Positions 28,557 to 37,006 of a stretch of 37,006 bases of DNA are shown one piece after another; position 1 is the stretch's first letter, and each line of letters opens with the position of its first letter. Below the pieces are notes generated by a model. The model worked only from the letters and a program-made list of their open reading frames with translations. It searched no databases and was not told the DNA's origin. Source of the stretch: Thermoanaerobaculia bacterium. Its GTDB lineage: Bacteria > Acidobacteriota > Thermoanaerobaculia > Multivoradales > JAHEKO01. Location: NCBI GenBank assembly GCA_945787575.1, contig CALZKB010000042.1, positions 1-37,006 of the forward strand, read 5' to 3'. The translations under genes were made by a program, and so were the position numbers.

Positions 28557-28581
28557 CGGCGAGGATCCTCACTCCTCGCCG
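28557..28581. terminator. Nine-bp GC hairpin between convergent genes
   Basis: CGGCGAGGA, loop TCCTCAC, TCCTCGCCG is a perfect stem beginning right after the stop of the small membrane protein gene. The loop holds the TGA stop (minus strand) of the M16 gene. There is no T-run on either side. Confidence 0.4.
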
Positions 28582-30779
28582 GCTTCGAAGAGCGCCGGGG
28601 CGACTTCGGAGTTCAGAGTCGCCTTGCTGACGGTGCTTTCGAGGTAAGGCTCGCCGTCGAACGTCGCATCGATCCGGAACGGCAGAATCATCCCGTCCGA
28701 ATCCCGGAAGTCCGAGTAAACCTGCAGAACCTCTCCCGGCGATCCCGTGAAATCGCTGCCGCGGAAGGCGAGCTCGACGACGCGACTGGTCTCCGAATCG
28801 AGCGCGACTTGGAAACGCTCACCGGCCACGTCGATCTCCACGTAGTCGACCTCAGCGCCGCGACTCTTACCCGAACCGGCGGCTACCGCATCGACGCGGC
28901 CCTCGACGAACGAGCGCAACAGAACAGGCAGGGTCCTCGGTAGGCCGGCCGCGACGTTGCGCCGTTGCGCGCCCTCCAACGGTCGACGCCCCTGCGGCGT
29001 CTCGACGAACGCGACCTCCGGCGAGAAGACGGTCGTCATTGCGCCGAACGGCAGGATGACCACTTGCCGCATTCGATCGGGATAGAGCACCCACTGGTCA
29101 ATCTCGGCTTCGAGATCACCCTGCGGTGTAGACGCTCTCGCCGAGGCGTGCTGACGGATGTTGTCGAACCGGGCGAAGACCGTCTCGCCTCCGTGGGCGG
29201 CGACGGCCGCCGCCATCAGCTCGGCGCCGCGGGTCCGCGTCGCGATCGCCGCCTCCACCGCCTCTTCGTCGAGGGGCGGAATCGTCGCGTCTACTTCGGT
29301 GAGCTCACCGAACTCCGCGAGCGACCGATCGCGGCCTTCGTCCGGTCCCACGACGAAGATCGTGAACGCGCCAGGATCGATGTACTTGCTGCCGATCTGT
29401 GCCACCTGCTCGGTGGTCACGCTCTCGATGCCCGGGACGTAGTGGGAGAGCCGATCGAGTGGATAGCCATGGTATTCGTAGGTGAGCTGCTGTCCGAGGA
29501 TCTCGGCGGCCGAGTCCGAGGCAAACACGAAGGAGCTGAGGATGTTCCGCTTGGCACGCTCGACCTCCTCCTCGGTGGGCGGTTCTTCGCTGACGATCTT
29601 GCGCGCTTCCGTCAACAGCGACTCGATCGCCGCGCCGGTCGTTTCGGTCTTGGTGCTCGTGTAGAGCTGAAAGAGACCGTCGCGGTCCCAGCGGCTCCCG
29701 AGCGAACCTCGAACCGCGTACGCCAAGCCCTGCTCCGATCGAACGCGCGAAAGCAGTCGCGACGTAAACCCCCCCGAGAGCACCTCGTTGAACACCTCGA
29801 TGGCGTAGAAGTCCGGATTGTCCTTCCGTACGCCGAGGTGTCCGATGAGGATGCTCGACTGCGTCACGTCGTTCTTCTCGACGTAGAAGACCCCGGGCTT
29901 CGGCTCGGTGTCGTAGCCGCCCTCGAACGGCTCCGTCGGCGTCTCCCCTTGCCACTCTCCAAAGGAGTCCCGCACGAGCTCGACCATCGAATCCGTCTCG
30001 AAGTCGCCGACGATGCCGAGGATCATGTTGGCCGGATGGAAGTAGCGGCGATGAAAAGCGATCAGATCAGCGCGGGTCAAGGCGGCGACGCCGGTGAAGG
30101 TCTCCTGCCGGGCGTAGGGGGAGTCCGCTCCGAGCACGACTTCGACGAACTCCCGCCGCAGGATCGCGTCGGCGTTGTCGTTCTGACGCGCGATCGCGTC
30201 GTTGAGCCTGTTCTTGGCGACCGCGATCTCCTCTTCGTCGAACAGGGGGTTGCGAAGGATGTCGACGAGCAGCTCGAGAACCTCGGGAAAGTCCTCGACG
30301 AGAGAGCTCGCTGCCGCGCTGCCGGAGTCGACTCCGATCCCGGTTTCGATGCTCGCGGCCCGGTTCTCGAGCAACCGATCGATCTCGGGACCGGTCATCG
30401 ACATCGTGCCACCGGTGCGGAGAACGGCGCCGACGAGTCCGGCGACACCGACTTTCTCGGCCGCCTCCAATCGAGCGCCGGTTCGGATCCGCACGAATGC
30501 ATCGATCAAGGGAAGCTCGTGATCCTCGACGAGAATCAACACCATGCCGTTGGCGAGCTCCACCCGGGTCGGCTCGGGGACCTCGAATTCCGGGAGCGGC
30601 GGGTAGACCAGGCTGTCGGCCCTTTTCGCCACCCTCTCGGCGGGTCTCTCTTCGAGCACCTCGTCCGGCGTTGCGGGCGGCATGACGCCGCCACAGCCGA
30701 GCACCCAGGCCAGGGCGAAGCTCAGCGCAGCGAGACTTGCTGCCGGCCTCTTCCAAACTCGCTTCCTCATCGCGGTCAT
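28569..30779 (-). CDS. M16 peptidase-like lipoprotein, inactive partner
   Basis: About 736 residues. The N-terminal signal ends in a lipobox (AWVLGC), so it is probably a lipoprotein. Two M16 domains follow (about 60-270 and 275-510), with FHPANMILGIVGDFE and TSRLLSRVRSEQGLAYAVRG. The zinc motif HxxEH is lost: the equivalent helix reads GLVGAVLRTGG. It is therefore a non-catalytic subunit like those of two-chain M16 enzymes. A C-terminal domain (about 520-736) with beta-rich, LolA-like character (GGETVFARFDNIRQHA, YSDFRDSDGMILPFRI) is an extra module. Starts at 30788 (TTG), 30779 and 30770 (ATG) are all possible. It follows the active M16 gene by about ten bases. Confidence 0.82.
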   Translation of the reverse strand: MTAMRKRVWKRPAASLAALSFALAWVLGCGGVMPPATPDEVLEERPAERVAKRADSLVYPPLPEFEVPEPTRVELANGMVLILVEDHELPLIDAFVRIRTGARLEAAEKVGVAGLVGAVLRTGGTMSMTGPEIDRLLENRAASIETGIGVDSGSAAASSLVEDFPEVLELLVDILRNPLFDEEEIAVAKNRLNDAIARQNDNADAILRREFVEVVLGADSPYARQETFTGVAALTRADLIAFHRRYFHPANMILGIVGDFETDSMVELVRDSFGEWQGETPTEPFEGGYDTEPKPGVFYVEKNDVTQSSILIGHLGVRKDNPDFYAIEVFNEVLSGGFTSRLLSRVRSEQGLAYAVRGSLGSRWDRDGLFQLYTSTKTETTGAAIESLLTEARKIVSEEPPTEEEVERAKRNILSSFVFASDSAAEILGQQLTYEYHGYPLDRLSHYVPGIESVTTEQVAQIGSKYIDPGAFTIFVVGPDEGRDRSLAEFGELTEVDATIPPLDEEAVEAAIATRTRGAELMAAAVAAHGGETVFARFDNIRQHASARASTPQGDLEAEIDQWVLYPDRMRQVVILPFGAMTTVFSPEVAFVETPQGRRPLEGAQRRNVAAGLPRTLPVLLRSFVEGRVDAVAAGSGKSRGAEVDYVEIDVAGERFQVALDSETSRVVELAFRGSDFTGSPGEVLQVYSDFRDSDGMILPFRIDATFDGEPYLESTVSKATLNSEVAPALFEAGEE

Positions 30780-30789
30780 CGCCTCCAAC

Positions 30790-32319
30790 TCACTCGCCTC
30801 GGACTCCGGCGTCCTCGGTCACGATCATGCCGACCGTGCGGTTCTCCGCGCGCAGTGTCTGTCGTGTCACCCGCAGGATGTCTTCCTTCGTCACCGCTTC
30901 GATCCGGTCGATGTAGCGGAACAGCTCCCGCCAGTCGCCATAGAGCGTCTGAAAATCGACCAGATTGCTGGCCAGGCCGGAGTTGCTCCTCAGCGAGCGC
31001 AACAGTCCGGCCTTGGCACGCGCCTTGAACCGGTCTAGCTCCTCGTCCGTCACCTCTTCAGACTGGATCCGCTCGATCTCCTCGCGGATCGCTGCCCGAA
31101 CCTCCTCGTTGGAGCTGTTCGGACTGGGGAAGGCATATGCCAGCCATAGCGTCGGGTACTTGCTTCCGGGGAGTTGCGAGAACGAACCGGCATTGGCGGC
31201 GATCCTCTTTTCTCTCACCAGAGACCGGTACAGCCTGGAGGTGCGTCCTCTGGAGAGGATGTCGTCGATTGCATCCCACACCGGCTGATCGGGGTGAGTA
31301 TGGCCTGGGATGTGGTAGCCCTCGATATACAGCGGCTGTGAAGGATCGACCAGCGTGATCACTTTCTCCGCGAGCTGCTCGGGCTCAACGGTTCGCAGCG
31401 ACTCCGGCAATGGACCGGCCGGAACTCGACCGAAGTACTTCTCCAACAGAGGGATGAGGGTGTCGGGGTCGATGTCGCCGACGATCGCCGTCACCATGTT
31501 GGCCGGTACGTAGTACTTCTCATAGAACTTTCGGGCGTCGGTCATCGTGATCGACTGGAGGTCGCTCATGTAGCCGACGACCGGCTGCTTGTAAGGATGC
31601 GCCACGAAGGCGGTGGCTTGGAACTGTTCGAGGAGTCGCCCGATCGGCTGGCTGTCTGTGCGCTGCCGTCGCTCCTCCTGAATAACAGCACGCTCCTTGT
31701 AGTAGTCGCGAAACACTGGCTGCAGGAAGCGGTCCGACTCGAGATAGCAGAAGAGCTCGATCTTGTTCGCAGGCAAGGAGTAGATGTAGCCGGTGAAGTC
31801 GGTGTTGGTGAACGCGTTGATGCCGACGCCGCCCTCGCCGCTGAGGATCCGGTCGAACTCGCCCGGCACGACGAAAGCGGCAGCGGCCTCCTCCGCTTCC
31901 TCGAAAGCGGCGTGGAGCTTGTCCAATCGTTCGGGATCCGGAGCGAGCGACAGCCGTTCTGCCTGGTATTCCTCGTAAGCCGCCTCCATCGCGTCGAGCG
32001 CGAGCTTCTCCGTCTCGTAGTCCGTTGTGCCGAAGTTCGGCGTCCCTTTGAACGCCATGTGCTCGAACATGTGAGCGACTCCGGTGATCCCCGGAGTCTC
32101 CTGAGCCGATCCGACGTTGACCAACGTCTCGAAGGAGAAGACCGGGGCGACCGAGCGCTCCACGAGAATGAACGTCCAGCCGTTCTCGAGTCGGTGAAGC
32201 GTCGTGCGCTCCTCGAAGTCCGTCAGGTCCTGAGCTGTGAGCTGGCCCGTCGTTCCTGCAAGGAGAACCGCCAACCCGATCGCTGCCGACAGCGTTCCAC
32301 CACCGTGTCGAATCATCAA
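30790..32319 (-). CDS. Exported M16 zinc metallopeptidase, active subunit
   Basis: A 509-residue protein with a signal peptide (cleavage about residue 30, after LTAQ). The inverted zinc motif H83-MF-E86-H87 (GVAHMFEHMAFKGT) is intact. GGVGINAFTNTDFTGYIYSLP and YYVPANMVTAIVGDIDPD are family features. RTSRLYRSLVREKRIA lies in the second domain and carries the usual Arg for substrate ends. It works in the periplasm or at the surface as an oligopeptidase, probably as a dimer with the next gene's inactive partner. GAGGAG lies about nine bases before the ATG. A helical insert (about 110-160, Glu/Ala-rich) is longer than in mitochondrial-type relatives. Confidence 0.92.
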   Translation of the reverse strand: MMIRHGGGTLSAAIGLAVLLAGTTGQLTAQDLTDFEERTTLHRLENGWTFILVERSVAPVFSFETLVNVGSAQETPGITGVAHMFEHMAFKGTPNFGTTDYETEKLALDAMEAAYEEYQAERLSLAPDPERLDKLHAAFEEAEEAAAAFVVPGEFDRILSGEGGVGINAFTNTDFTGYIYSLPANKIELFCYLESDRFLQPVFRDYYKERAVIQEERRQRTDSQPIGRLLEQFQATAFVAHPYKQPVVGYMSDLQSITMTDARKFYEKYYVPANMVTAIVGDIDPDTLIPLLEKYFGRVPAGPLPESLRTVEPEQLAEKVITLVDPSQPLYIEGYHIPGHTHPDQPVWDAIDDILSRGRTSRLYRSLVREKRIAANAGSFSQLPGSKYPTLWLAYAFPSPNSSNEEVRAAIREEIERIQSEEVTDEELDRFKARAKAGLLRSLRSNSGLASNLVDFQTLYGDWRELFRYIDRIEAVTKEDILRVTRQTLRAENRTVGMIVTEDAGVRGE

Positions 32320-32370
32320 GAATCTCCTCGTCTCGGGCTGGGAAGGCCGGGCGAATGCCCGACAAGCCGA

Positions 32371-32376
32371 AGCATA
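32371..32376 (-). promoter_or_regulatory. Possible extended -10 of the M16 operon
   Basis: The minus strand reads TGC-TATGCT (TGn-TATAAT-like), about 50 bases before the ATG at 32319, and starts just past the T-run of the terminator at 32391-32420. The -35 region is poor. Confidence 0.3.
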
Positions 32377-32390
32377 GCATCGCTCCCTGC

Positions 32391-32420
32391 TACAAAAAGA
32401 AGCCGCGCTCGAGAGCGCGG
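32391..32420 (-). terminator. Intrinsic terminator after the C25 protease gene
   Basis: On the minus strand CCGCGCT, loop CTCG, AGCGCGG is followed by CTTCTTTTTG. This perfect seven-bp GC stem plus T-run is a standard rho-independent terminator. It separates the C25 gene from the M16 operon. Confidence 0.75.
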
Positions 32421-32544
32421 CGAGTCCCGTGATTGGGACAAATCCAAGGAGGGAGTGGCAGGCCAGGGGGGGTTAGACCCGCCACCTCCCCACCTTTCAC
32501 CAAATCGACATCGCTGTCGACCTATCTCGCGGACACGGGTCCGC
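32403..32544 (-). other. Run of five stem-loops in the C25 3' region (candidate structured RNA)
   Basis: Reading down the minus strand after the C25 stop there are five inverted repeats in 142 bases: GCGGAC/GTCCGC (32529-32544, 4-base loop), TCGACA/TGTCGA (32505-32520, 4-base loop), GGGAGGTGGC/GCCACTCCC (32451-32490, one bulge), GTCCC/GGGAC (32424-32439, 6-base loop) and the terminator stem (32403-32420). No reading frame here looks coding. It may be a structured 3' UTR or a small RNA; I do not recognise an RNA family. Confidence 0.4.
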
Positions 32545-32579
32545 AAACCTGGTTCTAGTCATGTTTGGTGGTCCGTTCA

Positions 32580-35476: not shown

Positions 35477-37006
35477 CTACGGGAGCTCGACCGCGGGATC
35501 GCCCGTGATGCCGTAGGCGTTCAACATCTCGCTCGAGCCACCCTGGTCGGCGAAGGCGGTCAGGGTGCTCAGAACGAGGTCGCCCAACGCGGCTCCCGTG
35601 GAGCTCTCCAAGGCTTCGACGTAGAGCCTGTTCATCACGTGCGCCAGACCACTCACCGAGAGACCACTCGGAGCCCAGACGGCGATCGCGCCGCCGTCCT
35701 CGTCGGTGACCAGCGCCTCGGCCACCGACTCGACGGCCGGCACGTCGGACCGACCCGCGACGCAGGTCAGGGCCGAAACGACCGGCAGTCGGTCTCCGTT
35801 GTCGAGCAGACCCATGTCGCCGACACCGAGCAGGTTCTCGGCGGCCAACTGCATCACGCCACCGTGACCGATGTAGTTGACGAGCTGGACACCTTCGTTC
35901 CACGCCGCCTGGAGAGCGGCCCGCGCTTCCGCCGTCGACAGCGACTCGAGATAGACGTGCTGTCGGTCGTAGCTGACTAGAATCGAGGAGACCGTATCGC
36001 TCTGCGCAGAGAAGTCGCCCGCGGCGTCCGGGTTGTCGGCCAGCAACAGCGCCCGGCCTCTCCAGTCGCCACTCGACCCGTCGTAGGCCTGCAACTTGTC
36101 GACGTAGCCGCCGAGCTCGCTCTCGCTGACGATCGGCAGACGTCCGATGGCGAGCTCGGGAATCGAATCGTCGCCGATGAGATCCGCCAACGCGTTGTCC
36201 GAAGCCACGAGACCGTACGGAGATCCGACGAGCACGATCGGCAGGAAGTTGTCTCCGTTGCCGAGCAGGTCGCGCGGATCGAACGTGCCGCGGCCGGCCA
36301 GCACCACGTAGCTCGGAGCCTCGGACCAGTTCGCCCTGGCGTAGTCGAGCAGGTCGCGGATCGCCCACGGGGTGACGATGCCGCCGCTGAAGGCGTCGTA
36401 GACGTCCTCGAGGGCGATCGCCATCGACGACTTGCCCTGGCTCGTGCGGTAGCTGGCCAGGCGATCGGCCTCCGCCATCCAGTCGACCGGCGCGATCACC
36501 AGATGCTCCACCTGATGATGGGTCGCGCGCAGATCGATCTCCGGCTCCACGAGTCGCAGATTCTCACCCGCGAGCGCCGCCGAGAAGGTCGTCACGAAGT
36601 ACTCGACACTGCTCTCGCCCGGGACGAAGCTCGCCTGGAATCCATCGGTCCCCATCTCCACGCGGACGTTGCGCGCCAGTTTCGGTTGCGCCGCGCTCTC
36701 GAGCTCGAGTACCGCGACGTCCGCGGACGAGAGGCTCTCGACCGTGACCACCGGATTGCCGTCACCGGTCAACCGCAACGCATCGCCGACCGCACGATAG
36801 AGCCGCGGGTAGGTGAGCTCGAAGCGGTCGATGAAGAAGATCGAGGCGGTTGAGCCACCCTCGAGCGTCCCCTCGACCTCGATGTTGGTCGCCGGCGTCA
36901 GCAGCGAACCGTCGAAGTCGAAGGTCGCCTCGTGACGCTCACGGCCACCCCAACTGGTCTCGCCGACCTCGACGCCGTTGACCCGCACGATCGCGTGGTG
37001 ATCGTT
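35477..37006 (-). CDS. Gingipain-type (C25) cysteine peptidase, paralogue 2 (5' partial)
   Basis: The frame is open to the window edge, so the N terminus is missing; about 509 codons are seen. The first codons, NDHHAIVRVNGVEVGE, match HHAVIYVNGTHVGD inside paralogue 1, so roughly 350 residues should lie outside. The shared blocks continue: FIDRFELTYPRLYR, DPRDLLGNGDNF, LADNPDAAGDF, NYIGHGG with the catalytic His, and VSALTCVAGR with the Cys, again 34 residues or so apart. It ends GDPAVELP without a sorting tail. Order and spacing point to a tandem duplication. Each copy has its own terminator, so they are separate transcription units. Confidence 0.85.
   Translation of the reverse strand, partial: NDHHAIVRVNGVEVGETSWGGRERHEATFDFDGSLLTPATNIEVEGTLEGGSTASIFFIDRFELTYPRLYRAVGDALRLTGDGNPVVTVESLSSADVAVLELESAAQPKLARNVRVEMGTDGFQASFVPGESSVEYFVTTFSAALAGENLRLVEPEIDLRATHHQVEHLVIAPVDWMAEADRLASYRTSQGKSSMAIALEDVYDAFSGGIVTPWAIRDLLDYARANWSEAPSYVVLAGRGTFDPRDLLGNGDNFLPIVLVGSPYGLVASDNALADLIGDDSIPELAIGRLPIVSESELGGYVDKLQAYDGSSGDWRGRALLLADNPDAAGDFSAQSDTVSSILVSYDRQHVYLESLSTAEARAALQAAWNEGVQLVNYIGHGGVMQLAAENLLGVGDMGLLDNGDRLPVVSALTCVAGRSDVPAVESVAEALVTDEDGGAIAVWAPSGLSVSGLAHVMNRLYVEALESSTGAALGDLVLSTLTAFADQGGSSEMLNAYGITGDPAVELP

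Follow-up and report, generated by a model that had tools for sequence, protein, structure and literature searches.

Bacterial 3' untranslated regions (3' UTRs) often exceed the 40-50 nt that a terminator needs, and in the groups studied most of them are not conserved between orthologues (PMC7821165). Our analysis of a 37,006-nt stretch of the GC-rich genome of an uncultured member of the Acidobacteriota (hereafter the window) revealed an array of five hairpins (SL1-SL5) between genes for a C25-family peptidase (C25-2) and an M16 peptidase, all encoded on the minus strand (Table 1). Given its location past the stop codon, its strand bias and its final terminator, the array fits a 3' UTR approximately 180 nt long. 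It is probably the 3' UTR of the C25-2 mRNA, composed of an intrinsic terminator and additional hairpins that in all likelihood serve no regulatory purpose of their own.

Table 1. Genes and RNA secondary structure elements at the C25-2/M16 locus (positions in the window).
Feature	Description	Position	Strand	Support
C25-1	C25-family gene, in tandem with C25-2	35477-37006	-	
C25-2	Peptidase family C25, 864 aa	32580-35174	-	Pfam PF01364, 3.1e-63
Array	SL1 to SL5	32402-32545	-	
SL1	6-7 bp, loop CCGU	32528-32545	-	-10.4 kcal/mol folded alone
SL2	10 bp (3 G-U), GNRA-type GCGA loop	32501-32524	-	-10.1 kcal/mol vs -6.3 on plus strand
SL3	19 bp, two 1-nt bulges, 11-nt loop	32446-32496	-	-30.2 kcal/mol vs -21.0 on plus strand
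SL4	5 bp, 6-nt loop	32424-32439	-	Folding
SL5	GC-rich 8-9 bp terminator stem	32402-32421	-	Folding and terminator geometry
Terminator tail	T-rich, TTCTTTTTG, directly 3' of SL5	32393-32401	-	Sequence
M16	M16 peptidase, start 82 bases past SL5	30790-32319	-	Pfam PF05193/PF00675

The preliminary description of this locus had listed five consecutive perfect or near-perfect stem-loops on the minus strand, the last of them a classic terminator with a T-run. All five are present and fold separately, with pair probabilities mostly of 0.9-1.0 and lower values at the bases of SL1 and SL2; as SL3 holds two single-base bulges, the wording "near-perfect" is correct. SL5 has eight pairs, seven of them G-C, and a loop of four, and is followed immediately by the T-run TTCTTTTTGT; together with its tail it is a predicted textbook intrinsic terminator, as had been stated. 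The small ORF that overlaps the array (32316-32546) had no Pfam match, and a tRNA/tmRNA search found none.

Folding of the 151-nt array on the minus strand gave an MFE of -78.7 kcal/mol, compared with -57.7 +/- 4.4 kcal/mol for dinucleotide shuffles (z -4.8). The plus-strand fold was weaker (z -3.5), because the G-U pairs of SL2 and SL3 exist on the minus strand only. Without the terminator SL5, SL1-SL4 still reached z -3.7; this exceeds what a terminator needs, so that a selected function is conceivable.

The computed features are the stems, their strand bias, the geometry of the terminator and the absence of the array from a sister species; to these we add transcription, termination and protection of the 3' end by inference. 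RNA polymerase moving along the minus strand would pass SL1-SL4 and stop at SL5 and its T-run, so that the terminator would insulate the downstream M16 genes; the M16 gene is probably a separate transcription unit. SL1-SL4 would form during transcription, compacting the 3' end of the mRNA and making it resistant to 3'-to-5' exonucleases. That the extra hairpins may protect the mRNA in this way is suggested by general knowledge of such structures. The 3' UTR reading is supported by the position of the array between stop codon and terminator on the coding strand, by the stronger fold and the G-U pairs on that strand, by the hairpins that also follow C25-1 and paralogues on other contigs, and by the occurrence of one hairpin between the C25 and M16 genes in the sister. 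As 3' UTRs are mostly unconserved (PMC7821165), missing conservation is no argument against it.

Relatives of the array were sought by several approaches. The comparison with Rfam that the preliminary description had called for gave no family match, the whole window yielding zero matches at gathering score. Relaxed thresholds returned only sub-threshold look-alikes, all far under the cut-offs, including the terminator-ended small RNAs SorY, suhB/mmgR and SorX; such look-alikes arise because the terminator is GC-rich. DNA searches of the genome itself, of 59 relatives, of 72 genomes of the order and of 396 genomes of the phylum, the last scoring the best two candidates per genome, recovered the locus itself and otherwise only short chance matches of approximately 15-33 nt. 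Neither the array nor any part of it was thus found a second time in its own genome above chance level. A covariance model combining structure and sequence, built from the single sequence, recovered only the array itself, other matches scoring at most 20 bits. Without conservation, the chief computational means of testing for a functional RNA is lost; with no relative found, the array looks like an ordinary structured transcript end that evolves fast, and not like a new RNA family.

The most probable alternative is a trans-acting small RNA derived from the 3' UTR. It would be produced by endonucleolytic processing of the C25-2 mRNA or from an internal promoter, with the terminator-ended array persisting as the product. 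The array is compact, stable and ended by a terminator, its size is typical for small RNAs, and the weak Rfam look-alikes named above point in the same direction. However, no promoter-like site was found in or around the array, no Rfam family or homologue was recovered, and few bases are left unpaired that could pair with targets. The only positive evidence for a small RNA is the fold, and we consider this alternative unlikely. More specifically, we regard it as very improbable that the 3' end of the C25-2 mRNA gives rise to a lineage-specific small RNA in which SL1-SL4 are the functional part and which regulates other transcripts, for example those of other C25 and M16 genes of this genome. 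As to the earlier suggestion of either a structured 3' UTR or a stand-alone small RNA, position, strand and fold thus uphold the former part, but the latter finds no promoter-like site, Rfam family or homologue in its favor.

Structured region, terminator and ORF follow one another on the same strand, and SL5 ends 82 bases before the M16 start; the array could therefore be read as a riboswitch or attenuator leader of the M16 gene, with the stems sensing a signal and SL5 acting as a conditional terminator. This is very unlikely, since the sister M16 gene lacks the region and no fold competes with SL5: upstream of the sister orthologue (74% identical) lie just about 80 bases with one hairpin, while forbidding SL5 costs approximately 16 kcal/mol and the best alternative fold does not pair its arms, so that no antiterminator is seen. 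No Rfam riboswitch match was found either. The M16 gene belongs to a back-to-back pair at 28569-32319 on the minus strand, encoding proteins of 739 and 509 aa with a 1-base gap between the genes. Several relatives (loci L005, L007, L008, L010 and L012) likewise have a second M16 match just 3' of their M16 orthologue.

M16 orthologues in the other two genomes of this genus are 74-77% identical, and the closest named record with the gene is MAG 13_May_SF_Bin86 (74% identity). Among 80 named M16 loci, the sister MAG (L038, the G001:C112 stretch) was the one case with a detectable C25 gene beside M16. The sister C25 gene preceding M16 is the orthologue of C25-1 (63% identity to C25-1 and 38% to C25-2), and the gap of about 80 bases that separates it from M16 contains one terminator-like hairpin (GGAAGGGCGCGC-CGTGAA-GCGCGCCCTTCC) followed by TTTG; C25-2 and the array are therefore missing there. 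By this comparison, C25-2 and the array make up one segment that the sister lacks, and either gain here or loss there would fit the two genomes. In the genomes searched, the best identity of C25-2 is about 40%, to a paralogue from the same genome and to the C25-1 orthologue of the sister; the phylum search yielded no close orthologue, the best match outside the family being 36% identical.

In the sister, neither C25-2 nor the array lies between C25-1 and M16, which also agrees with the array being a leftover or terminal part of a mobile or repeated element that arrived with the C25-2 gene. However, the intergenic regions flanking C25-2 showed no significant mutual similarity, and the array has no second genomic copy, so we regard such an origin as highly improbable.

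Besides the tandem pair in the window, the genome contains at least four further C25 homologues, on contigs C3, C20, C34 and C164. C25-1 has its own hairpin and T-rich tail just past the stop codon, and its 3' region showed no similarity to that of C25-2. C25 paralogues on other contigs (L030, with three hairpins, and L034) also finish with strong hairpins. Hairpin richness 3' of C25 genes was considered as a general rule and rejected, as it holds for a few of them (L030, L183 and L181) and not for most. Downstream of another C25 paralogue on contig C34 (L139, 5500-5710), three strong hairpins were found, including stems of approximately 13-14 bp, and the fold excess there exceeds that of the C25-2 array.

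The genomic background for fold strength comprised 1,396 intergenic windows of 150 nt, taken from the window and from 20 stretches (400 kb) of its genome. The best sampled position in the array region had a fold excess of -16.3 kcal/mol, close to the 1st percentile of the background (-16.4 kcal/mol), a percentile that is approximate, since genes were mapped by a simple heuristic based on ORFs and GC3, and fold excess was calculated from 10 shuffles per window. A stronger excess occurred in 14 background windows, coming from eight places. Folding of the array is thus more than chance, yet it is not unique or exceptional in this GC-rich genome. That GC-rich intergenic sequence happens to fold around a single genuine terminator is the least likely explanation: about 12% of the intergenic windows hold at least four hairpins of at least 5 bp, but just one of the 400 shuffles matches the MFE of the array. 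A fold excess within approximately the top 1% of the sampled intergenic windows of this genome counts against a plain 3' UTR. The strongest excess in the 400 kb sampled was found in an intergenic region of contig C5 (L124, 8331-8540), which contains a near-perfect inverted repeat of about 28 bp (GGCGAAGAACGTGGTTCTTTCCGGCTGG / CCAGCCGGAAAGAACCACGTTCTTCGCC).

If transcribed, the array would be one further case of a structured bacterial 3' UTR that evolves fast, belonging to a peptidase gene missing from the sister, and of little significance beyond that; strong local folding without homologues is insufficient to claim a new RNA family. Among known systems, SorX and SorY (Rfam RF02784 and RF02651) resemble the array in being hairpin-rich and terminator-ended, and both match it weakly; however, their scores of 12.2 and 19.2 bits fall well short of the gathering scores (46.6 and 111, respectively), and the array is not a member of either family. 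SL5 shares with intrinsic (rho-independent) terminators the GC-rich stem of 8-9 bp, the short loop and the T-rich tail, whereas SL1-SL4 have no such tail. Compared with the long structured bacterial 3' UTRs (PMC7821165), the array differs in having five hairpins in a row, beyond the needs of a terminator, but it has in common with them the extended region between stop codon and terminator, the stem-loops and the poor conservation between orthologues.
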